A DNA stretch of 64,000 nt from Halarchaeum nitratireducens (lineage in GTDB: Archaea > Halobacteriota > Halobacteria > Halobacteriales > Halobacteriaceae). Location: assembly GCF_014647155.1 (NCBI RefSeq), contig NZ_BMOQ01000002.1, positions 372,001 to 436,000 on the forward strand, in the 5' to 3' direction. Positions 17,386-28,946 of the stretch are shown here, one piece after another; the first letter of the stretch is position 1, and each line of letters starts with the position of its first letter. The translations under genes and the position numbers were made by a program. The notes beneath the pieces were generated by a model. It did no database searches, was not told the origin of the DNA, and saw only the letters and a list, made by a program, of their open reading frames with translations.

Positions 17386-18237
17386 CTAGTAGTGCGCCGC
17401 CTCGACCGCCGCGTCGAAGCGGGCCGCGAGCCGCTCGGTGAGGGGACCGACCGGGAGCGCCGTCCCGTCGACGTCGACGAGCGGTCGGATTTCCCACGTC
17501 GTGTTCGTCAGAAACGCCTCGTCGGCGCGCCGGAGAGCCACCGGGTCGTACGTTCCGGTCTCGACGTCGATCCCCTCGCGTGCGGCGAGATCGAGGACGG
17601 CGCGTCGCGTCACGCCCGGGAGAACGTCGCCGTCGAGCGTCGGCGTGTGGAGGGTGTCGTCGCGAACCCAGAAGGCGTTGCTCGTCGCGCCCTCGGCGAG
17701 TCGGCCGTCGACGTCACACAGGAGCGCTTCGTCCTCTCCGTCGAGTTCGTTCCGCGCGAGGATGCCGTTCAGGTAGTTGTGCGTCTTCGCGGCCGCGGGA
17801 ACGGCCGCGTCGGGCACGCGGCGCGTCTCGACGACGCGTGCGCTCGCCGGGGCGTCCCAGACGTCGTCGCCGGCGGTACCGCCGCGCGGGAGCGGTTTCG
17901 TGACGACGATCACGGTCGGGTCCGCGGGGCCGGGCGTGAGTGCGCCCGGCTGGGCGCCGCGCGTGACGGAGACGCGAACGTAGGCGTCGGCGAGGTCGTT
18001 CGCGGCGAGCGTCTCCCGGACGCGCGCGCGGATGTCGGCGGCGTCCGGATACCGCTCGAAGCCGAGCGCGTCGAGCGTGTTCCGGAGGCGCGCCGCGTGG
18101 TCGTCCCACCGGAAGACCGTCCCGCCGTAGGCGCGGAGGGTCTCGAAGGCCGCGTCACCGTAGCGAAAGCCCCGGTCGGCGACGCTCACGCTCGCCGCGT
18201 CGGCGTCCACGAGCGCGCCGTCGACGTGGTACTGCAT
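17386..18237 (-). CDS. pabC: Aminodeoxychorismate lyase-like, class IV PLP aminotransferase
   Basis: 283 aa from ATG 18235-18237, two nt after the pabA stop. The PLP lysine is Lys151 in AAAKTHNYLNGIL and the phosphate-binding region is EGATSNAFW. Class IV enzymes include branched-chain and D-amino acid aminotransferases. The tight linkage to pabA and pabB argues for 4-amino-4-deoxychorismate lyase, which makes p-aminobenzoate for folate. Last gene of the three-gene operon. Confidence 0.82.
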   Translation of the reverse strand: MQYHVDGALVDADAASVSVADRGFRYGDAAFETLRAYGGTVFRWDDHAARLRNTLDALGFERYPDAADIRARVRETLAANDLADAYVRVSVTRGAQPGALTPGPADPTVIVVTKPLPRGGTAGDDVWDAPASARVVETRRVPDAAVPAAAKTHNYLNGILARNELDGEDEALLCDVDGRLAEGATSNAFWVRDDTLHTPTLDGDVLPGVTRRAVLDLAAREGIDVETGTYDPVALRRADEAFLTNTTWEIRPLVDVDGTALPVGPLTERLAARFDAAVEAAHY

Positions 18238-18239
18238 CG

Positions 18240-18860
18240 TCACTGCTGGCGCTCCGCGCCCGTGCCCGCGAGGAAGTTCGCCACGAGCCGACGGCCGAGC
18301 GAGAGATCCGCGGGATCGTCGGGTCGGCCGGTGAGAACGCTCTCCGGGTGGAACTGGACGCCGACGTGCGGTTTCTCGCGGTCCCGCACCGCCATGACGA
18401 CGTCGTCGCGCTCGCCGTCCGCCGTCCACGCGGTCTCGGCGAGTCGCGCGGGGAGCGTGTCGGCGTCGACGGCGAGCGAGTGGTACCGACCGACCGTGAC
18501 GGCGTCGGGGAGGTCCGCGAAGATCCCGGTACCGTCGTGGCGGATCGCGGACGGCTTGCCGTGGACGACGGCGTCGGCGCGGACGACGTCGGCACCGCGG
18601 GCGGCGCAGAGCGCTTGGTGGCCGAGACAGACCCCGAGAATCGGATAGTCGGTGTCGAAGAGCGGCACGGAGACGCCGGCTTCCGCGGGCGTCCCGGGAC
18701 CCGGGGAGACGACGACGGCGTCGGGGTCGAGCGCGCGAACGTCGTCGACGTCGATGGCGTCGTTCCGGCGGACGACGACGTCCGCGTCGCTCTCGCTCGC
18801 CACGTAGTCGACGAGGTTGTACGCGAACGAGTCGTAGTTGTCGACGACGAGGACGGTCAT
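18240..18860 (-). CDS. pabA: Aminodeoxychorismate/anthranilate synthase glutaminase subunit
   Basis: Class I glutamine amidotransferase that passes ammonia to the chorismate-converting subunit. 206 aa. Catalytic triad Cys78 (LGVCLGHQ), His171 and Glu173 (QFHPES). Oxyanion-loop motif SPGPGTP is at 52-58. The start overlaps the pabB stop by 4 nt. It could serve TrpE as well as PabB since this subunit is often shared. Confidence 0.9.
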
Positions 18861-20362
18861 TTCGAGACCTCCATCCCGCCGGCGTCGGCGGCGAGCGCGC
18901 GATCGAGCGCGTCGACGAGGGCCTGGGCCTTATCGAGCGTCTCGTCGTACTCGGCGTCGGGATCCGAGTCGTGCACGACGCCGGCACCGACGCGGAGGGC
19001 GTACTCGGCGTCCGTGCGGACGAGCGTCCGGATGACGATGTTGAACGCGGCGTCGCCGTCGAACCCGATCGCCGCCATGCTGCCCGTGTACGGTCCGCGG
19101 CGGGTCGTCTCCACCGACTCGATCAGCTCCATCGTCTTCGGCTTCGGGGCACCCGTGATCGTCCCCCCGGGGAAGACGGCCTCGACGGCTTCGCCGAGCG
19201 ACGTATCGGGCGCCATCCGGCCGGTGACGAGCGAGACAAGGTGCATGACCCGCGAGTAGCGATCCACGCGGCGGTACTCCTCGACGGCGACCGATCCCGG
19301 CTCCGAGACCCTGGCGAGGTCGTTGCGTTCGAGGTCGACGAGCATCGCGTGTTCGGCGCGTTCCTTCTCGTCGCCGAGGAGGTCGGCCTCGTACTCGACG
19401 TCCTCGGCGTCGCTCTCGCCGCGCGGCCGCGTCCCCGCGATCGGTTCCGTGACGAGGCGATCGCCCGCCCGTTCGAGCAGGAGCTCGGGGCTCGCGGAAA
19501 CGAGATCGCAGGACGGGAACTCGACGAGGCCAGCGTAGGGCGCGGGGTTCACGTCGCGGAGCGCCGTATACGCCTCGACGGGATGGACGGCGGCCGGCGC
19601 ACGGAGGCGCTGGCTGACGTTCGTCTGAAACGTATCGCCCGCGCGGATCGCCTCCTTGATCCGAGCGACGCGCCCGGCGAACGCCTCGCGGCCCGCGTCG
19701 CTCTCGAACGCCGCCGTCGTCGCGTCCGGCGCGGGCGCCGGCCCGACGGCCGGATCGCCCTCCCGGGCACGCTCGGCCAGCGCCGTCGCCCGCGACAGCG
19801 CGGCGTCGTAGGCCTCGTCGATCGAGTCGTGCGCGTCGAGGCGGAGCGCGGCGACCACGCGGAGGTCGTCGCCCGGTTCGAACGGCGCCTCCCACGCGGC
19901 GAGGCACTCGTAGGCGGCGAGTTCGAGGCGCGGGAGGGCACGGTCGTCGGTCGTCGTCTCGGGGATGGCCTCGGTCTCCCGCGCCGCGTCGTACGAGAGG
20001 TAGCCGAAGAAGCCGCCGGGATACGGGACGTCGCAGCCCCCACGAACGAGCGTCTCGTCCGCGAGGAGCGCGTCGATGGCCGCGAAGGCCCCCTCGTCTT
20101 CGGGACCGATGGTCGTCACGTCCGCGGGCGTGACACCGAAGTAGCCCCAGCCGTCGGCGTCCCCGCCCGTCTCGTAGAAGAACGACGGCTCGCGCGTCCC
20201 GACGTCCGCCACGCGCCCGCCGCGTGCTCGGCGGTAGGCCTCGAACGGGTCCTCGACGGAGAGGCGGACTTCGACCGGGACGCGCGCGCCGTCGGGTGCG
20301 TCACGCGCCGCCGCGCGGAACGTTCCCCGGTCGGTGACGGGACGAACGTACTGCTTGCTCAC
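18857..20362 (-). CDS. pabB: Aminodeoxychorismate synthase component I (PabB/TrpE family)
   Basis: 501 aa from GTG 20360-20362 (start less certain; the frame is open to 20467). The chorismate-binding domain is intact: [12 protein letters not shown], the PIAGTRPRG motif, [15 protein letters not shown] and [13 protein letters not shown]. Typical PabB has PIKGT, whose lysine takes part in catalysis, whereas anthranilate synthase has PIAGT. Here the motif is the alanine type. The adjacent class IV lyase favours p-aminobenzoate synthesis, but an anthranilate synthase role is not excluded by sequence alone. Confidence 0.8.
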
Positions 20363-20483
20363 GCGCGTAGTCGGATGCGAACGAACAAACCAGTTTCGGT
20401 GGGTGTAGCATGGCCGACAGCACCAGTCGGTAACGTCGACGGTGGCGGTCCGAACCGCCCGGAGCAACGCGGCCGGGGGTGCG

Positions 20484-20876
20484 CTACTCCGAGACGCTCT
20501 GGACGACGACCGGGCGCTCGGCCTCGAGGATGACGCGCTGCGTCGTGCTTCCGAAGACCGCTTTGCCGGTCGGGCTCCGCGAGCGGCCGGCGAGCGCGAT
20601 GAGGTCCGCGTCGAGGTCGCGGGCCGCCTCGACGATCTCGGTCGAGGGGTCCCCGCTCCGTTCGATCAGGTTCGTCTCCACGCCCGCGTCGTCGAGTAAG
20701 TCCTGGGCCTCGTGGACCGACTCGATCTGTCCGACCGACGCGCCCTCCGGGTTGTCCGTGAACACGTGGAGGAGCGTCACGCGGACCTCGTCCATCTGGA
20801 GTGGCATATCGAGGATGGACTCGATCTGTTTATCGGCGCGATCCGGGTCGTCGAGCGGCACGAGGATCTCGTACAT
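20484..20876 (-). CDS. Universal stress protein (UspA family)
   Basis: 130 aa single-domain USP from ATG 20874-20876. N-terminal strand [10 protein letters not shown] and the ATP-type C-terminal loop [20 protein letters not shown] are present, the latter close to the G-2x-G-9x-G-S/T signature. Such proteins bind ATP or adenine nucleotides and respond to stress; the partner is unknown. A second USP is at 55598-56032. Confidence 0.88.
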
Positions 20877-21170
20877 CTACGTACGCACCCTCGACAGCCG
20901 CTCGGTTCGCAGTGTTGTCGATACGACCCGCGTCCGTTCGGTTCGGCCAGCGCGCATGTTTTCGAGTTGGATCCCATCGGTAATCATAGTTTGGTTCGTC
21001 CGCGGTCTCGATGCCGACTCGAAACGAACCCCCGATCGCACGTGGGACGGTCCAAGCCGGGAAGATACCACCGAATAATCAGATACACACATAGTCTAGC
21101 AACGAGGTAATTCCGCCGTCGCGTCATCGCGCGCGCTAACTACATATGTGTGGGTGGCGTACGTGGGGGT
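20877..21170. other. Divergent intergenic region, USP / msrA
   Basis: 294 nt without a gene. ACATATGTG (about 21141-21149) lies 28 nt before the msrA ATG and is its probable TATA region. Nothing else stands out. Confidence 0.35.
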
Positions 21171-21710
21171 ATGACTGCGACCGAGACCGCGACGTTCGGT
21201 GGCGGGTGTTTCTGGTGTATCGAGGCGGCGTTCGAGGAACTCGAAGGCGTCGTCGACGTCACGTCCGGCTACGCCGGCGGGAGCGTCGAAGATCCGACGT
21301 ACGAGGCGGTGTGCAGGGGCGAGACGGGCCACGCGGAGGTCGTCCAGATCGAGTACGATCCGGGCGTCGTCTCGTACGCCGACCTGCTGGAGGTGTTCTT
21401 CACGATCCACGACCCGACGCAGGTGGACCGGCAGGGTCCCGACGTCGGCTCGCAGTACCGCTCGATCGTCCTCACCCACGACGACCGCCAGCGTGAGGAG
21501 GCGGAGGCGTACATCGAGGCGCTCGACGGGGAGTACGCGGACGACGTCGCGACGGAGATCGAACCGCTCGACGCCTTCTACCGCGCCGAAGAGTACCACC
21601 AGAACTACTTCGAGAAGAACCCGAACGACGCGTACTGCACGATGCACGCGCGCCCGAAGGTCGAGAAGGTGCGCGAGGCCTTCGAGTCGAAGGTGGAACC
21701 CTCGGCGTAG
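21171..21710 (+). CDS. msrA: Peptide-methionine (S)-S-oxide reductase
   Basis: Repairs methionine-S-sulfoxide in oxidised proteins. 179 aa from ATG 21171, the normal size. The catalytic motif GGCFWC gives Cys13 as nucleophile (with Cys16 nearby), and GYAGGS, HAEVVQIEYDP and the DVGSQYRS loop are all canonical MsrA. The C-terminus carries a further cysteine (DAYCTMH) that may resolve the disulfide. Followed 86 nt later by the HtpX-like protease gene. Confidence 0.95.
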   Translation: MTATETATFGGGCFWCIEAAFEELEGVVDVTSGYAGGSVEDPTYEAVCRGETGHAEVVQIEYDPGVVSYADLLEVFFTIHDPTQVDRQGPDVGSQYRSIVLTHDDRQREEAEAYIEALDGEYADDVATEIEPLDAFYRAEEYHQNYFEKNPNDAYCTMHARPKVEKVREAFESKVEPSA

Positions 21711-21796
21711 GACGCGGAGCCGAGGGCGACTCGATCGACCGGCGGGAACGGCGACCGCCGGAACGCGTTTCGGGCAGGCGACCGTAGACGCGAGCG

Positions 21797-22756
21797 ATGA
21801 AGCGACTCGGGCTCCGACTGGCGATGGCGGCGGTCGGTGTCGCGCTCCTCGTCGGATACGTCGGCGCCGCGGCCCTCGCGTACTGGGTGCTCGCCGTCCT
21901 CTGGACGACTCGACCGGATCCGACGACGGCGCTCACGATCGTCGCCGTCGCCGTGATCGTCGTCGGCTCTCTCAGCTACGCGTTCGGGACGCGACACCTC
22001 CTGGCGCGACTCGACGCTGAGCCGATCGCACGGGAGCGCGCGCCCGGACTCTACGACCGGGCGGCGACGCTCTGCGAGCGGATGGACACGGACGTCCCGG
22101 CGTTCTACGTCGGCCGGATGGCGATGCCGAACGCGTTCGCACTCGGCGGCATCGGGACCGGCGTCGTGGTCCTCGATCGCTCGCTCTTCGGTCTCCTCAC
22201 CACGACGGAGCTCGACGCCATTCTCGCGCACGAACTCGCGCACTTAGAGAGCCACGACGGGTTCGTCCGGACGCTCGCGTTCAGCGTCGGCGAGACGCTC
22301 ACGGGGCTCCTGTCGATCGTGCTCTTCCCGGCCGTCCTGTCGACGACCGGGCTGGCGAAGGCCTGGGCGTGGTTCAGCGGTCGACCGGACACGTGGACGC
22401 AGAACCCGGTCGGACGGGTTCGGCGCGTCCTCGATGGGGTGATCGGGTTCGGCCTCATCGCGCTCACGTTCGCCGTCAACGCGCACTCGCGACACCGGGA
22501 GTTCGCCGCGGACGACCGCGCGGCCGACGTGACCGACGACCCGATCGCGCTGGCGCGGGCGCTACGGAAGATCGAACGCGCGAGCCGGCCCACGTGGGCG
22601 GTCCTCTCGCCGTTCTACGTGCACAGCGACGACGACGACGTGGAGAACCCGATCGAGCGGTGGTTCTCCACGCACCCGGATCTCGACGAGCGAGTCGAGC
22701 GTCTCCGGGAGAAGGCGGCCGCGTCGGACGACACCGTTCAGGTTCGTGTCGAGTGA
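21797..22756 (+). CDS. HtpX-like membrane zinc metalloprotease (M48)
   Basis: 319 aa integral membrane protein. Two N-terminal membrane segments (about 8-36 and 43-63) precede the zinc motif HELAH (His145, Glu146, His149); the third ligand is the Glu in HREFAADDRAAD near 231. A further pair of hydrophobic segments lies around 160-190 and 205-225. The family degrades misfolded membrane proteins. The gene ends just before the replication-origin repeats. Confidence 0.88.
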   Translation: MKRLGLRLAMAAVGVALLVGYVGAAALAYWVLAVLWTTRPDPTTALTIVAVAVIVVGSLSYAFGTRHLLARLDAEPIARERAPGLYDRAATLCERMDTDVPAFYVGRMAMPNAFALGGIGTGVVVLDRSLFGLLTTTELDAILAHELAHLESHDGFVRTLAFSVGETLTGLLSIVLFPAVLSTTGLAKAWAWFSGRPDTWTQNPVGRVRRVLDGVIGFGLIALTFAVNAHSRHREFAADDRAADVTDDPIALARALRKIERASRPTWAVLSPFYVHSDDDDVENPIERWFSTHPDLDERVERLREKAAASDDTVQVRVE

Positions 22757-22802
22757 TTCGACGTTCCGATAATCTGCAACCTGAGACGGTCACGACCGAC
22801 GA

Positions 22803-22822
22803 TACTGCGGACAGAGTGGTGT
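22803..22822 (+). repeat. Origin recognition box 1
   Basis: TACTGCGGACAGAGTGGTGT. Exact reverse complement of 22937-22956. Confidence 0.75.
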
Positions 22823-22936
22823 CGGTCGCGCTGGGCCAAGACGGAACAGACGCACATCGATCCACCGATCCCGAACTCTATCGACGGCTATCGTCCCCGT
22901 CGACGGTGCAACAGCGAGGGACTGGATCGACGGGCA

Positions 22937-22956
22937 ACACCACTCTGTCCGCAGTA
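22937..22956 (-). repeat. Origin recognition box 2
   Basis: Perfect 20-nt inverted partner of box 1, 114 nt further right. Confidence 0.75.
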
Positions 22957-23178
22957 AATCGGTCCGAGACGGAAGCAGACGGTGCAGTTGGACGATCGGT
23001 TCACGGCCGAAGAGTCGAAAGGAGTACGAGCCGACGACGTGTGTCGGTCACACGAGTCGAGAGCGAGACGGTACGACCGGGTGGCGACAACCGGCGTGAT
23101 TCGAGACGATGACCGACGAGGGACACCCCACGATGTCCGCTGTTCTTCGAGCGTCCGCGATCCGCGACGACGGGACGA

Positions 23179-23205
23179 ACCCTCCCCCCACTTTGTCCGC
23201 AGTAA
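23179..23205 (-). repeat. Origin recognition box 3
   Basis: 27 nt identical to the reverse complement of 23449-23475, including a G-rich tail that points away from the AT-rich core. Confidence 0.82.
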
Positions 23206-23299
23206 TCGCGTTCGGGGGCACGGACGGGGGGAGAAAGAAGAAGTGTATATTGCTGGTAAATGCGGCACGAGGATATTTTCACCGCCTCTGTCGGGATCG

Positions 23300-23448
23300 G
23301 TAAAGGACGACGCTGTCGGGAACTCCAACGTTTCTAATAACTAACATTTCCTTAATAACCCAGTACGGGTACTATTTGCTATACTCCTACTTAGAACTAT
23401 CGTCCATCTAGAAACTCTTCTCTCACTCCCGCCCCACTATTTTTCTCG
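23300..23448. other. AT-rich candidate duplex-unwinding element
   Basis: Runs such as TTTCTAATAACTAACATTTC and TTGCTATACTCC make this the most AT-rich part of the intergenic region. It lies between the inverted boxes 3 and 4. Confidence 0.65.
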
Positions 23449-23475
23449 TTACTGCGGACAAAGTGGGGGGAGGGT
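23449..23475 (+). repeat. Origin recognition box 4
   Basis: Begins TTACTGCGGACAAAGTGGGG and extends 27 nt as a perfect inverted copy of box 3. Confidence 0.82.
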
Positions 23476-23526
23476 CGTGGCCGAAATCTTGATGTGCCAT
23501 CGTTCGTCGTATATATATTCTGTAGA

Positions 23527-23551
23527 ACTGCGGACACTGCGGACGCGGTGG
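23527..23551 (+). repeat. Origin recognition box 5, overlapping the orc1 promoter
   Basis: ACTGCGGAC is repeated in tandem (23527-23535, 23536-23544) and the second copy continues as GCGGTGG. It touches the TTTTATTA TATA box of orc1, so Orc1 binding here could repress its own gene. Confidence 0.65.
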
Positions 23552-23559
23552 TTTTATTA
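23552..23559 (+). promoter_or_regulatory. orc1 TATA box
   Basis: TTTTATTA centred about 28 nt before ATG 23584, consistent with a leaderless mRNA. Confidence 0.6.
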
Positions 23560-23583
23560 TGCGATCCGACGAGGGGTGTTCGT

Positions 23584-24906
23584 ATGGGACTCTTCGAGCG
23601 GGACACCGATATCTATCGGGACCGCGACGCGCTTCGGGAGGACTACCAGCCGGCCGAGCTGGTCGGGCGGGACGAGGAACTCTCCACCTACACGTCCGCC
23701 CTCCAGCCGGTCATCAACGGCGAGCAGCCGAACAACGTCTTCCTCTACGGGAAGACTGGCGTCGGGAAGACCGCCGCGACGCGCTACCTCCTCGACCACC
23801 TCCGGGAGGACGCCGAGGAGTACGACGACATCGCCCTCGACATCATTTTCCTCAACTGTGACGGGCTCTCCTCTTCCTATCAGGTCGCGACCCATCTCGT
23901 GAACGAACTGCGCGCCGAGCACAATCAGATCAGCACGACGGGCTACCCGCTCGCGACGGTGTACGAGATGCTCTGGGAGGACCTCGATTCCCACGGCGGG
24001 ACCGTCCTCATAGTCCTCGACGAGATCGACAACATCGGCGACGACTCCATTCTCTATCAGCTCCCGCGCGCCCGTGCGAACGGCAAGCTCGAAGACACGC
24101 AGGTCGGCCTCATCGGCATCTCCAACGACTTCTCCTTCCGCGACGACCTCTCCCCCAAGGTCAAGTCCTCGCTCTGTGAGAACGAGATCCACTTCCCCGC
24201 CTACGACGCCACCGACCTGAAGGCCATCCTGAAACAGCGCGCGGACGTCGCGTTCCACGACGGCGTTCTCGACGACGGCGTCATCCCGCTCTGTGCGGCC
24301 TACGGCGCGAAGGACGCCGGCGACGCCCGCCAGTCGATCGACCTCCTGATGAAGGCGGGTGACGTCGCGCGCGACGACGAGGCGACCACGATTACCGAAG
24401 ACCACGTCGATCGCGGCCGCACCGCGCTCGAACGCGGCCGCATCGAAGAGGGGATCAGGGGGCTCACCGAACACGGCCACCTCGTCCTCTACGCGCTCGT
24501 GACGAACGATCTAGAGGGCGAAACGCCGATCCGCTCGCGCGACGTCCGCCCGCGGTACACGCGCTTCGCCGAACTCGCGGAACGCGATCCGCTCGTCCCG
24601 CGCCGGATGCGCGATCACCTGAGCGAACTCGCCATGCTCGGGATCATCTCCGTGACCGAGCGCAACGAGGGCCGTCGCGGCGGGACGTACCGGGAGTACG
24701 AACTCGACATGCCCGTCGAGCAGGTGTTGAGCGCGCTCTCGGAGACCGTGAAACTCGTCGGCGTCCACGAGTCCGTCGTCGAACTCGCCGAGGACGCTAT
24801 GCCGGATCTCACGACGGCGGTCGCCAGCACCGAGGGCGACGGATCGGATGGTGAGACACGGGCCGACCCGGATCGCTCGGACGCGTCGTTGGCGTCCTTC
24901 GAGTAG
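23584..24906 (+). CDS. orc1: Orc1/Cdc6 replication initiator
   Basis: Binds origin boxes and recruits the MCM helicase. 440 aa from ATG 23584, chosen over upstream in-frame starts because of the TATA box spacing. AAA+ motifs: Walker A YGKTGVGKTAATR (GKTGVGKT 56-63), Walker B VLIVLDEIDN (141-150), sensor-1 region GLIGISNDFSF. The C-terminal third is the winged-helix DNA-binding domain (about 320-410), followed by an acidic tail. Flanking boxes with one shared sequence suggest this protein is their cognate binder. Confidence 0.95.
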   Translation: MGLFERDTDIYRDRDALREDYQPAELVGRDEELSTYTSALQPVINGEQPNNVFLYGKTGVGKTAATRYLLDHLREDAEEYDDIALDIIFLNCDGLSSSYQVATHLVNELRAEHNQISTTGYPLATVYEMLWEDLDSHGGTVLIVLDEIDNIGDDSILYQLPRARANGKLEDTQVGLIGISNDFSFRDDLSPKVKSSLCENEIHFPAYDATDLKAILKQRADVAFHDGVLDDGVIPLCAAYGAKDAGDARQSIDLLMKAGDVARDDEATTITEDHVDRGRTALERGRIEEGIRGLTEHGHLVLYALVTNDLEGETPIRSRDVRPRYTRFAELAERDPLVPRRMRDHLSELAMLGIISVTERNEGRRGGTYREYELDMPVEQVLSALSETVKLVGVHESVVELAEDAMPDLTTAVASTEGDGSDGETRADPDRSDASLASFE

Positions 24907-24956
24907 CGCTCCCCGAGCGGGGCCAGCGGCCCCGCCCGCCGTCCCTCCGCGATCGA

Positions 24957-24979
24957 TTACTGCGGACACGGTGGGGTAG
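24957..24979 (+). repeat. Origin recognition box 6
   Basis: Starts TTACTGCGGACACGGTGGGG, 50 nt after the orc1 stop. Confidence 0.7.
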
Positions 24980-25020
24980 GCGGTGGCCCCGTCCGCCGTC
25001 CCGATCGGTCACGCCGACGA

Positions 25021-25044
25021 TTACCGCGGACGCGGTGGTGTCGG
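25021..25044 (+). repeat. Origin recognition box 7
   Basis: Starts TTACCGCGGACGCGGTGGTG; one mismatch in the TACTGCGGAC core. A weaker copy may follow near 25050-25070. Confidence 0.55.
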
Positions 25045-25160
25045 TGCGGAACGGCGGACACGCCGGGGTCGTTCGTCGTCGGTCCTCGTCGCCCGTCTCG
25101 ACGAGCGATCCACCGTTCCGAACCGAAAGCCCCCAGTAGCACCTCGTCCTCCGTACGTTC

Positions 25161-25994
25161 GTGCGCGTCCTCGTCACCGGCGCGACCGGTCGATACGGCT
25201 ACGCCGCCGCGCTCGCGCTCCGTCACGCGGCCGTCGACGTCACGGCGCTCGTCCGCGACCCGGACGCCGACGCCGCCGGCGACCTCGCGGAGCGCGGCGT
25301 CCGCCTCGCCCGCGGCCGGCGTGACCAACTCGACCACGTCGAGGACGCCCTCGCGGACGCCGACGCCCTCTTCCTCGCCGTCGGCGGTCCGGGTGCGAGC
25401 GCGCGAACCGCGGCCGAACGGGCCGACACGCTCGTGCGCGCCGCCGACCGCACGGACGCTACCGTCGTCCACGCGTCGCTCCTCGCCGCCGACACGCGCC
25501 CCGGCGTCCCCCTCGTCGACGTCCGCGGTCGGATCGACGCGGACCTCGTCTCCAGGGACGTCACGCACGTCTCGTTGCGTCCCGGCGTCCCCCTCGATGC
25601 CTTCGAGCGCGTCCGCGGAACCGTCGAGACAGAGGGACGACTCCCGTTCCCGCTCGACGGACACGCGCGCGTCCCGCTGACCGACCCGCGCGACGTCGGT
25701 CGGGCCGCCGCGGCCGCGTTCACGGACGAGCGCGCGCCCGCGGGCGAACGCCTCCCCATCGTCTCCGGGACGCACTCGCTCTACGACGTCGCCGACGTCC
25801 TCGAAGCCCTCCTCGATCGATCGATCACGGCCGATCCCCGGGGACCGAGAGCCGCCCCGCGCGCGCTCACCGCCTTCTACCGGTGGGCGAACGAGGGGGC
25901 GCTCCTCGGCGCCGACACCGACGCGCTCCGGGAACGCTACGGCGTCGCCCCGTCGCCGATCCGCGACTACTTCGAACGCGCCGGGTGGGCGTAA
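25161..25994 (+). CDS. NAD(P)-binding Rossmann protein, NmrA/SDR-atypical type
   Basis: 277 aa from GTG 25161. The N-terminal dinucleotide motif VLVTGATGRYG and the strand ending in LVRDPDAD identify an atypical short-chain dehydrogenase of the NmrA/QOR2 kind. The catalytic YxxxK motif is not recognisable, as in NmrA sensors and several quinone reductase-like members. Whether it is an enzyme or a redox sensor cannot be decided. It is 2 nt from the convergent aldo/keto reductase stop. Confidence 0.75.
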   Translation: MRVLVTGATGRYGYAAALALRHAAVDVTALVRDPDADAAGDLAERGVRLARGRRDQLDHVEDALADADALFLAVGGPGASARTAAERADTLVRAADRTDATVVHASLLAADTRPGVPLVDVRGRIDADLVSRDVTHVSLRPGVPLDAFERVRGTVETEGRLPFPLDGHARVPLTDPRDVGRAAAAAFTDERAPAGERLPIVSGTHSLYDVADVLEALLDRSITADPRGPRAAPRALTAFYRWANEGALLGADTDALRERYGVAPSPIRDYFERAGWA

Positions 25995-25995
25995 C

Positions 25996-26796
25996 TCACT
26001 CGTTCCACGGCGCCGCGGGGAAGTCGACGAGTCGCTCCTCGCGCTCGATTCCGTCGATGCGCGCGACGTCCCCATCATCGAGATCGAGGTCGAGCGCGCC
26101 GTAGTTCTCGACGATGTGCGCCTCGGAGGTCGCCTTCGGAATCGCCGCGACGTTCTCCTTCGAGAGGAGCCACGCGAGCGACACCTGATACGGCGTCGCG
26201 TCGTGCTTCCCGGCGATCTCGACGAGTTCGGGGACGTCCGCGACCTGCCCGCGCGCCACCGGGCAGTAGGCGACGAGCCAGTGGTCGTCGGCGAGCGCGC
26301 GCTCGTGGAGGCCGTCCTGCTGGAGGAGCGGGTGCATCTCGACTTGATGAGCGAAGACCGGGCTCTCCAGGTGCTCGATGGCCTCTTCGAGGAGGTCGGG
26401 CGTGAAGTTCGACAGCCCGACGTTGCGGATCGCGCCCTCGGTGCGCAGGGTGTCGAGCGCGGGCAGCGTCTCCGCGGGGTCGTAGCCGTCTATCGGCCAG
26501 TGGACGTAGAGGAGATCGACGTACTCCGTGTCGAGCGCTTCGAGGCTCTCCGCGGTCGTCTCGTGGACCGCGTCGCGCGCGAGGTTGTCCGTGTCGAGCT
26601 TCGTGGCGAGGAAGACCTCGTCGCGCTCGACGTCGGCGTCGGCGATACCTCCCCCGACGTACGTCTCGTTGTCGTACATCTGTGCGGTGTCGACGTGTCG
26701 GTATCCGGCTTCGAGCGCCGCTCGAACGGCGTTCCGACAGTCCGCGGGATCGGTGTTCTCGTACGTCCCGAGGCCGAGCCGGTGGAAGTCGCTCAT
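25996..26796 (-). CDS. Aldo/keto reductase
   Basis: 266 aa NADPH-dependent (beta/alpha)8 oxidoreductase from ATG 26794-26796. The catalytic tetrad is complete: Asp36 and Tyr41 (VDTAQMYDNE), Lys66 (ATKLD) and His99 (YVHWP). The cofactor-binding IPKATSEAHIVEN segment is near the C-terminus. Similar to bacterial 2,5-diketogluconate reductase-type AKR5 enzymes; the natural carbonyl substrate is unknown. Confidence 0.9.
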   Translation of the reverse strand: MSDFHRLGLGTYENTDPADCRNAVRAALEAGYRHVDTAQMYDNETYVGGGIADADVERDEVFLATKLDTDNLARDAVHETTAESLEALDTEYVDLLYVHWPIDGYDPAETLPALDTLRTEGAIRNVGLSNFTPDLLEEAIEHLESPVFAHQVEMHPLLQQDGLHERALADDHWLVAYCPVARGQVADVPELVEIAGKHDATPYQVSLAWLLSKENVAAIPKATSEAHIVENYGALDLDLDDGDVARIDGIEREERLVDFPAAPWNE

Positions 26797-26993
26797 CGCG
26801 CCGACGTACGTCCGTCGGCCCGAAAACACTACGGGCCCCGGCGCGCCTCACACGACTCGTCGCCCCCGGTTCTCGGTCCGCTTCGTCTCGTCGGCTCCCT
26901 GCCCGTCCGCCTCCCGACGACTCCGACGCGGCCGTGTCCGCTCGCCCGCACCGCCGTCACGCCTATATTCGAGACCGCCTTTCGTCCACACGT

Positions 26994-27440
26994 ATGACAC
27001 GACGCAACCCATTCGACGACATCGACCGGCTCTTCGATCGGCTGAACCGTCAGTTCGAGGACGCGGCCGAGATGTTCGACGCGGAAGGCGGCGACGCGCT
27101 CACGGGCGGTTTCGCCGCCGACGTCGAGGACGCCGGTGACGAGTTCGTCGTCACCGTCGACCTCCCCGGCTTCGAGAAGGAGGACGTCGACGTCCGCGTG
27201 CAGGACCGCGCGCTCTCCATCACCGCCGAGCGGACCACGGAGACGGGGTCGAGCGAGGGCGACGACGACGAATCGACGTACGTCCGCCGCGAACGCCACG
27301 GCCAGTCCGTCTCTCGTCGGCTGACGCTCCCCGAGCCGATCGACACGGACGACGTCGCCGCGACGATGAAAAACGGCGTGCTCACCGTCACGCTCGGAAA
27401 GGAAGACGGCTCCGGCGGCCACCGCATCGAAGTCGAGTAA
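26994..27440 (+). CDS. hsp20: Small heat-shock protein, Hsp20/alpha-crystallin family
   Basis: ATP-independent holdase chaperone. 148 aa from ATG 26994, with CCTATATTC about 30 nt upstream as TATA region. The alpha-crystallin core spans about 40-140 (VVTVDLPGFEKEDVDVRV) and ends with the signature NGVLTVTLGK. An acidic insertion near residues 85-95 is typical of halophiles. Monocistronic. Confidence 0.93.
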   Translation: MTRRNPFDDIDRLFDRLNRQFEDAAEMFDAEGGDALTGGFAADVEDAGDEFVVTVDLPGFEKEDVDVRVQDRALSITAERTTETGSSEGDDDESTYVRRERHGQSVSRRLTLPEPIDTDDVAATMKNGVLTVTLGKEDGSGGHRIEVE

Positions 27441-27477
27441 CGCCGCGCTCTCCCGTGTCTTCGGCTTTCGATTCCGT

Positions 27478-28305
27478 TCAGACGTCGACGACGCGTTCGA
27501 TCCGCGCGCCGGGCTCCGGATGATCCGCGCCGTCGAGTCCGGCGACGGCGTCCATGAAGGCGACGCGATAGCTCGCCGGCCCCTCGTAGTCGCCGAACGC
27601 GCCTTCGGCCGCGACCTCGCCCGCGACGCCGAAGGAGAGCGCGCCGGCGAGCGCCGCCGTCTCCGCGTCGTCGAGCGCCGCGGCGAAGGTCGCCAGCGTC
27701 ACGCCGAGCATGCAGCCGGTGCCGACGATCCGGCCGAGCATGGCGTTGCCCGCCGCGACCTCGTAGGCCGCGTCGGCCGTCGCGACGACGTCCGTCTCGC
27801 CGGACGCGACCACTACCGCGTCGGTGTCTCGCGCGAGCGCCACCGCCGTCTCCGCGACGTCGGCGTACTCGCCCACCGATTCGACGCCGCGGACGTCGGC
27901 GTCGTCGCCCGCGAGCGCCGTGATCTCGCCGTAGTTCCCCTTGACGACCGCCGGATCGAGGTCGGTGACGAGCGCGTCGGCGACGCGGTCACGGGTCGGC
28001 GTCGCGCCGACGCCGACGGGGTCGATAACGAGCGGGACGCCGTGCTCGTTCGCGGCCCGTCCCGCCGTCATCATCGCCGCCTCGCCGGCCTCGCTGACGG
28101 TCCCCATGTTGAGGAGACAGCCCTGCGCGCCCGCGACCATGTCGCCCACCTCGCGCGCGTCGTCGGACATCACGGGGAGGCCGCCCCAGTGGAGGGCGAC
28201 GTTGGCGACGTCGTTGACGGTGACGGCGTTCGTCACGCAGTTGATCAGCGGCTGTTCGTCCCGGATCGTGCCGAGGCAGTCGGCGATGGTGAAGTCGGTG
28301 GTCAT
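27478..28305 (-). CDS. thiM: Hydroxyethylthiazole kinase
   Basis: Phosphorylates the thiazole alcohol in thiamine salvage. 275 aa. Recognisable ribokinase-fold segments include INCVTNAVTVNDVANV, LVIDPVGVGAT, VVKGNYGEI and the catalytic cysteine loop VGTGCMLG. The start overlaps the thiE stop by 4 nt, so the two genes form one operon supplying thiazole phosphate to ThiE. Confidence 0.95.
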   Translation of the reverse strand: MTTDFTIADCLGTIRDEQPLINCVTNAVTVNDVANVALHWGGLPVMSDDAREVGDMVAGAQGCLLNMGTVSEAGEAAMMTAGRAANEHGVPLVIDPVGVGATPTRDRVADALVTDLDPAVVKGNYGEITALAGDDADVRGVESVGEYADVAETAVALARDTDAVVVASGETDVVATADAAYEVAAGNAMLGRIVGTGCMLGVTLATFAAALDDAETAALAGALSFGVAGEVAAEGAFGDYEGPASYRVAFMDAVAGLDGADHPEPGARIERVVDV

Positions 28306-28946
28306 GGGCTTCCTCTCGCGCTCCGTACCGCCTCCGCGAGTTCGCGCGTCGCCGCCTCGGGATCGTCCGCGGCGGTGATCGCGGAGACGACAGCGACGCC
28401 GTCCGCGCCCGCCTCGATCACGTCCGGGGCGTTCGCGGCCGTGATCCCGCCGATCCCGACGATCGGAACGTCGACGGCGTCCGCGACGGCAGCGACGGTC
28501 TCGGGTCCGATCTCCGCGTGTTCCTCGCGGACGTCCTTCGAGTCAGTCGCGTAGACGGCCCCGACGCCGAGATAGTCCGCACCCGCCTGCACGGCCCGTC
28601 TGGCGGCCTCCACGGAGGACACCGAGCGCCCGACGATCGCCCCGTCGCCGAGCACGTCGCGCGCGGCGGCGACCGGGAGGTCCTCGTCCCCGAGGTGGAC
28701 GCCGTCCGCGTCGACGGCCGCCGCGATGTCCACGCGGTCGTTGACGAGGAAGGCGACATCCGCGTCGCGCGTCTGCTCGCGCAGCGCGCGCCCGAGGTGG
28801 TAACGTTCGCGCGCCGTCGCGCCCTTCTCGCGCAACTGCACGACGTCGACGCCGCCGGCGACGGCGGCCGCGACGATGTCCTCGGTCGTCCGCCCACGCG
28901 ATCGACTCCCCTGCGTGACGAGGTACGTGCCGAACTCGATATTCAC
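28302..28946 (-). CDS. thiE: Thiamine-phosphate synthase
   Basis: Joins thiazole phosphate and HMP-PP to thiamine phosphate. 214 aa TIM barrel from GTG 28944-28946. Family motifs: VVQLREKG, LVNDRVDIA, GVHLGDEDLPV, IVGRSVSS and IVGIGGITAANA. First gene of the thiE-thiM operon. A perfect 7-2-7 palindrome (28945-28960) covers the start codon, which makes repression at this point plausible. Confidence 0.95.
   Translation of the reverse strand: MNIEFGTYLVTQGSRSRGRTTEDIVAAAVAGGVDVVQLREKGATARERYHLGRALREQTRDADVAFLVNDRVDIAAAVDADGVHLGDEDLPVAAARDVLGDGAIVGRSVSSVEAARRAVQAGADYLGVGAVYATDSKDVREEHAEIGPETVAAVADAVDVPIVGIGGITAANAPDVIEAGADGVAVVSAITAADDPEAATRELAEAVRSARGSP

Follow-up and report, generated by a model that had tools for sequence, protein, structure and literature searches.

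A probable oriP-cdc6K-type replication origin on a Halarchaeum megaplasmid, with a candidate operator array before its orc gene

INTRODUCTION

Haloarchaea hold many orc genes and several replicons, and the locus described here touches on the question of how each replicon has its own copy level. In iteron-type plasmid control, a single initiator has sites within the origin, in the promoter of its own gene and, as extra copies, elsewhere. In archaeal oriC1, the ORB and mini-ORB elements are two-part sites made of a recognition part and a G-rich end. Inverted boxes with a G-rich end are also found in an intergenic region adjoining an orc/cdc6 gene of Halarchaeum nitratireducens, within a 64-kb stretch of DNA that is called the window throughout this work. 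A sequence-only reading of the window had taken the locus for a replication origin with a distinct ORB sequence, by which this Orc could be paired with its origin. Is the locus an origin, which replicon would it serve, and are its boxes tied to its own Orc?

RESULTS

Boxes and inverted repeats around orc

All positions refer to the whole 64-kb window, in which the box pattern was scanned on both strands with mismatches counted (Table 1). The seven boxes that the sequence-only reading had placed around orc1 were recovered, five of them exact and two with two mismatches (23535+ and 25022+). Its geometry was also reproduced: boxes 1 and 2 are a perfect inverted repeat, as are boxes 3 and 4, which lie 243 nt apart with the A+T-rich core between them and their G tails pointing outward, and two boxes (24958+ and 25022+) follow the orc stop at 24906. 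Two additional boxes with two mismatches (23128- and 23526+) had been overlooked, as had the array that the latter forms in tandem with the 23535+ box (two mismatches), 9 bp away. At the place of the 23128 box, the other three congeneric genomes have AACAGCGGACANNGTGG (two genomes) or AACTGCGGACACGGTGG (one genome), and the second downstream box is likewise present in all three.

Table 1. Features of the orc locus, in window coordinates
Feature	Position	Strand	Remarks
Box 1, left arm of the outer inverted pair	22803..22822	+	Exact TACTGCGGACANNGTGG; pairs with box 2 as a perfect 20-nt inverted repeat
Box 2, right arm of the outer inverted pair	22937..22956	-	Exact TACTGCGGACANNGTGG at 22940
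Extra box AACAGCGGACATCGTGG	23128..23144	-	2 mismatches; overlooked by the sequence-only reading
Box 3, left arm of the inner pair, G-rich tail	23179..23205	-	Exact TACTGCGGACANNGTGG at 23188; pairs with box 4 as a perfect 27-nt inverted repeat
A+T-rich core, probable unwinding element	23206..23448	.	51.9% A+T, between boxes 3 and 4
Box 4, right arm of the inner pair, G-rich tail	23449..23475	+	Exact TACTGCGGACANNGTGG at 23450
Upstream TATA-like element	23510..23518	+	Sequence
Candidate operator array: half-box pair with a 9-bp step, GTGG at its end, no G tail	23526..23551	+	Sequence
TTTTAT, probable orc TATA box	23552..23557	+	Abuts the array; 32 nt from its first T to the ATG
orc1/cdc6 initiator gene, 440 aa (AAA+, lid, winged helix)	23584..24906	+	TIGR02928 441.8 bits (cut-off 181.3); Pfam Cdc6_lid, Cdc6_C
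Downstream box	24958..24974	+	Exact TACTGCGGACANNGTGG
Second downstream box	25022..25038	+	2 mismatches

The set of boxes around orc exceeds chance. Nine matches with at most three mismatches occur in the 64 kb, a number reached by none of 100 dinucleotide shuffles (shuffle maximum, 4). All five exact matches in the 3.14-Mb, 27-contig genome fall at this locus, as do 9 of the 23 boxes found genome-wide at up to two mismatches, compared with 9 genome-wide matches to the reversed pattern. The core is markedly richer in A+T than the window (51.9% versus 32.1%), and 24 of 3,188 sampled 243-nt windows were equally A+T-rich. The nearest named relative by Orc is Halarchaeum rubridurum (98% identical). 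PDB relatives of the window Orc include 2qby and 2v1u, and among its solved relatives are Sulfolobus Cdc6-1/-3 and Aeropyrum ORC1. As a separate observation, GACTGCGGACAGCGTGG recurs elsewhere in congeners (G000:C9:17801 and several contigs of G001 and G002).

The replicon and its GC skew

The window lies in contig C2 (443,506 bases), which holds one of the 27 TIGR02928 matches of the genome, partial ones included. When C2 was compared with plasmid pCBA1220-01 of Halarchaeum sp. CBA1220 (602,938 bp), 190,798 bases were matched in 167 pieces, and a contig of H. rubridurum covered 374,938 bases of C2. The first and last long C2 matches fall at 362,602 and 362,595 of pCBA1220-01 and at 366,858 and 366,783 of the H. 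rubridurum contig; since both ends map to adjoining bases of these two sequences, we infer from synteny that C2 is circular. A terminal overlap was sought in C2 and none was found. A chromosomal nature of C2 was rejected because the contig has no believable tRNA gene, is circular and is similar to pCBA1220-01; ARAGORN made two weak tRNA calls on it, of which the inspected one (tRNA-Asn) sits in coding-like sequence. A phage match was also sought, and none was found. Genes for aminotransferase class IV, a chorismate-binding protein, hydroxyethylthiazole kinase and thiamine phosphate synthase lie at 17386-28946 of the window, and because these metabolic genes sit on it, the megaplasmid may be chromid-like, with household functions.

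The cumulative GC skew of C2, one of the checks named in the sequence-only reading, agreed with an origin: its maximum (395,677) is located 93 bases past the orc ATG (395,584), and its minimum (188,204) is nearly opposite. On the orthologous replicon of H. rubridurum, the maximum (324,564) falls inside the interval matching the core, between boxes 3 and 4 (324,422-324,700). Contig C13, which bears an oriC1-type orc and boxes, shows a skew of the same sign, peaking at the origin. However, other replicons count against the pattern. The skew peaks of pCBA1220-01 and pHH400 are 29 and 31 kb from the origin, which lies 7% and 4.5% of the range below the maximum, respectively, and no skew peak was found at the chromosomal orthologue of Halospeciosus flavus. 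Of the earlier proposal, the origin stood; the locus is read as the origin of a megaplasmid with one orc, and not as one of several chromosomal origins.

Conservation across haloarchaea

The search for relatives yielded 61 named loci. The 59 with an orc at least 72% identical, which come from five families, were scanned for boxes together with the window, and closely related species enter these family counts as separate rows. The counts leave out L157 (55%) and L160 (52%), and at this Orc identity (52-55%) no box with three or fewer mismatches was found in either locus. Between -170 and -100 of the orc ATG, all 60 family loci, window included, have a plus-strand box, and beyond -200, across the core, a minus-strand one. 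Furthermore, a downstream box occurs in 55 of the 59 family loci having at least 400 nt available, and the family total amounts to 590 boxes, compared with 18 for the reversed pattern. At the level of the order, a box with at most one mismatch was found in 80 of 243 genomes. The box search in relatives that the sequence-only reading had suggested therefore placed the box around the same gene in every named relative with an orc at least 72% identical (59/59). A box peculiar to this species was rejected, given that these 59 relatives of five families carry it.

In some relatives, the downstream boxes form regular, iteron-like arrays, with a step of about 34 bp in Halobaculum saliterrae (L126, +296..+500 after the orc match), about 39 bp in L153 (+240..+514) and about 45 bp in L163 (+577..+713). 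The copy of Halospeciosus flavus (L106; G243:C1, about 1,497,600-1,499,500) lies on a 3.18-Mb chromosome and is perhaps an integrated megaplasmid origin.

The Orc family forms one clade that includes the Cdc6K of pHH400 (29 rows on one side of the branch, SH-aLRT 100), and in plasmid records the orthologue sits on megaplasmids, pHH400 among them. The pHH400 orthologue is the gene at bases 1-1245, and the same boxes and promoter array are found at the published origin of this plasmid. The text of PMC3528665 sets origin families at Orc identities of at least 80%; the window Orc is 73.9% identical to Cdc6K, and by that cut would represent a separate family. Here, the window locus and oriP-cdc6K were grouped as orthologues by tree and box.

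Pairing of Orc and box within the genome

The pairing scan considered 50 orc loci from four congeneric genomes, with own-genome loci partly entered twice. Three or more boxes at up to two mismatches were confined to seven loci, namely the window orc and its orthologues (L026 and L044 to L047) and the C9 locus, entered twice (L031/L058). The proposed pairing of Orc and box was thus supported, and orthologues in other genera retain the box. The C9 orc (C9:72387-73544, 47% identical) has the box TTATGCGGACANGGTGG, two mismatches from the window box, at 72080-, 72240+ and 73788- (L031; G000:C9:72080-73804). Because the two boxes differ by only two letters, cross-binding between the C2 and C9 systems is possible, and so are cross-recognition or incompatibility. 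The other orc genes of the genome adjoin other repeats: CCCCGTTCTGCAAA at C4, AACACTTGCA at C7, ACCTGCGGAAA at C12 and TTCCA...GAAACGAAGGGG at C13. It is important to consider that "distinct", as the box had been called, is valid only within this genome, where the C9 box is two mismatches away; across haloarchaea it did not hold, because the widespread oriP-cdc6K family has this box in common. Another orc clade (L312, L313, L317, L318 and L319) has TTTCACCGGAAAC..GGTG boxes directly before the ATG, in an apparently different layout.

A half-box array on the orc promoter

The array before orc reads AACTGCGGACACTGCGGACGCGGTGGTTTTAT. Its second half-box is completed by GTGG to the full box core, and TTTTAT takes the place of the G tail. 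The survey of this feature covered 61 family loci (the 59 named ones, the window and pCBA1220-01). At least two tandem 9-bp units were present in 56 of them (35 with two, 18 with three, 1 with four and 2 with five); 3 had a single unit, and in 2 the anchor was absent, which in one case is due to an unread base (N). A TATA-like hexamer was found in 54 of the 59 loci analysed, and in 51 of these 54 it lies 17-21 nt before the first CGGA. The number of units varies in whole 9-bp steps (1 to 5) at nearly fixed distances to the flanking TATA-like elements. The array is also found in Haloferax mediterranei pHME505.

No account of half-boxes arrayed at 9 bp on the promoters of archaeal orc genes was recognised in the text of the open-licence literature, nor were tandem half-sites on an initiator promoter described in the parts of the ORB/mini-ORB literature consulted. 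The box letters TGCGGACA together with cdc6 were found in the text of no haloarchaeal paper of the open-licence literature, although PMC3528665 probably displays the box in its logos. The candidate operator may be new, and the origin belongs to a known kind.

Periodicity at other orc promoters

For other orc promoters, 60 orc loci were taken, of which 2 had no start codon found (L303 and L052). Among the 58 left, 3 belonged to the oriP family, and the other 55 came down to 48 once near-duplicate upstreams (72% alike or more) were removed. Not among the 60 were truncated loci, second copies of one locus, and loci (some of oriC1 type) whose profile match was split, partial or divergent. Between -100 and -30 of these 48 non-family upstreams, the mean autocorrelation was 0.335 at lag 9; every other lag from 3 to 24 gave 0.234-0.289, with the harmonic lag 18 in second place. 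None of 1,000 dinucleotide shuffles reached the lag-9 value, and the signal is sited at -80..-51.

The raw lag-9 value (0.335) was no higher than chance draws from 1,245 first-ATG ORF upstreams (0.326), a comparison that fails to separate the two because the ORF controls are largely coding, with elevated values at every multiple of 3. With the mean of lags 3, 6, 12 and 15 subtracted, lag 9 stood at 0.080 versus 0.003 in the controls (0 of 20,000 draws), and a non-coding-like control subset (322) had a mean lag-9 value of 0.277, with none of 20,000 draws reaching the orc value. Additionally, GTGGTTTTA at up to one mismatch was found between -60 and -18 in 12 of 48 orc promoters versus 5 of 1,245 control ORFs, some of which may be orc promoters, since all three control replicons carry an oriP-family orc. 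Promoter 8-mers were shared with the own distal DNA more often than with other loci (7.8 versus 3.1; 0 of 5,000 permutations), but in no more than 9 of 48 loci did the own distal DNA rank first, alone or tied, as 8-mer partner, which counts against this relation. Individually, 13 of 48 promoters were significant at 0.01 versus 8 of 100 controls; only part of the loci carries the signal.

DISCUSSION

Boxes beyond chance, orthology to a proven origin and a skew turn at the locus sustain the claim of a replication origin. On these grounds, replication of the circular, 443.5-kb Halarchaeum megaplasmid very probably starts at this locus alone, an orthologue of oriP-cdc6K. According to the text of PMC3528665, pHH400 has one orc gene, cdc6K, and oriP-cdc6K is ARS-positive. 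The text of PMC3936714 identifies oriP-cdc6K as the pHH400 origin by marker frequency and reports that its deletion was impossible. In Haloarcula hispanica, others have shown oriP and cdc6K to be essential. The two loci share the orthologous Orc, the boxes, the upstream inverted boxes, the downstream boxes and the promoter array, and differ in box number and spacing. Moreover, oriP-cdc6K is the sole published origin of a 400-kb-class megaplasmid, and C2 is circular, 443.5 kb long and endowed with one orc. In the text of PMC4441112, oriP-cdc6K appeared confined to Haloarcula; however, origins of this type occur on megaplasmids in genera besides Haloarcula. Like the ORB and mini-ORB, the window box combines a recognition part with a G-rich end, but its sequence is unrelated to theirs.

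In the mechanism that we propose, Orc1/Cdc6 would bind the outward-facing boxes on either side of the A+T-rich core, open the core and load the helicase; firing by Orc at boxes 3 and 4 is proposed because of homology and the published relative. The same Orc would bind the 9-bp-phased half-box array on its own promoter, where it would hinder TBP/TFB at the abutting TTTTAT and so limit its own synthesis. The boxes behind orc would soak up initiator. Such titration by the downstream boxes may be supposed by analogy with oriC2D of H. hispanica, a box cluster behind cdc6E that, as stated in the text of PMC3936714, restrains the origin, likely via titration of Cdc6E. A box cluster behind the initiator gene is common to both systems, although oriC2-cdc6E has another Orc, is chromosomal and counts 11 boxes, whereas the window locus has two, known from sequence.

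From its sequence and position, we infer that the array is a candidate autoregulatory operator of orc. It covers the region where, with either TATA-like element, TFB/TBP would sit or transcription would start, and for this reason autorepression, by which Orc would limit its own synthesis, is given an even chance; the array may act by activation instead. A less probable alternative, which nonetheless deserves weight, is that the array consists of two more origin boxes with no regulatory role, its adjacency to the TATA box being a by-product of orc adjoining the origin. Other boxes do lie near the array, and boxes occupy many sites around the gene. Yet the array, unlike the origin boxes, has no G tail, it differs between loci by whole 9-bp units with a nearly constant spacing to both TATA-like elements, and the promoters of other orc clades also have 9-bp phasing and a GTGG-TTTTA junction. 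Neutral slippage at G+C-rich promoters could likewise give a 9-bp periodicity, as short tandem units can expand in this way and the unit number does vary. This is improbable, because no comparable excess is seen at other lags from 3 to 24, the promoter 8-mers match their own distal sequence above permutation, and the array is kept over haloarchaeal families.

For the origin itself, a dormant state, with the megaplasmid replicated from another, unrecognised site, is still more improbable. Dormant orc-adjacent origins of H. mediterranei pHM500 are published (text of PMC4595724), and it counts against our reading that pHM500 has two orc genes, of which one is published as dormant and either may be the orthologue. 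C2, however, has a single orc gene by TIGR02928 and its skew maximum at the locus, and the orthologous origin is, in the text of PMC3936714, the only one on pHH400 and undeletable. That the boxes are partition or transcription-factor sites and no origin is hardly credible: centromeres and operators, too, can consist of repeated inverted sites close to a gene, and H. mediterranei has a ParA-family gene about 2.4 kb behind orc, but no partition gene is among the nine Pfam-classified neighbours of the window orc, the boxes track this Orc clade across genera, the skew turns at the locus, and the pHH400 relative has ARS activity according to the text of PMC3528665.

A probable sole origin with a candidate operator invites comparison with iteron control and with autoregulated dnaA, the latter cited in the text of PMC3936714. 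All of these have sites, candidate ones in our case, at the origin, on the initiator's own promoter and in extra copies elsewhere. Those systems use Rep or DnaA, whereas the window locus has an AAA+ Orc1/Cdc6, an archaeal TATA promoter and tandem half-sites at 9 bp.

Since one Orc clade is tied to one box across families, origins become assignable by sequence. If the array is an operator, archaeal initiator autoregulation would be testable by a reporter gene in H. hispanica. We tentatively suggest, at somewhat less than an even chance, that haloarchaeal Orc1/Cdc6 proteins generally control their own production through a dedicated operator of 9-bp tandem half-sites of their own box, with GTGG against the TATA box, clade-specific in sequence and shared in geometry. 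If this is true, each replicon of a multi-replicon archaeon would possess a private initiator circuit of origin boxes, operator and titration boxes, and such circuits would be comparable in logic to iteron plasmids.
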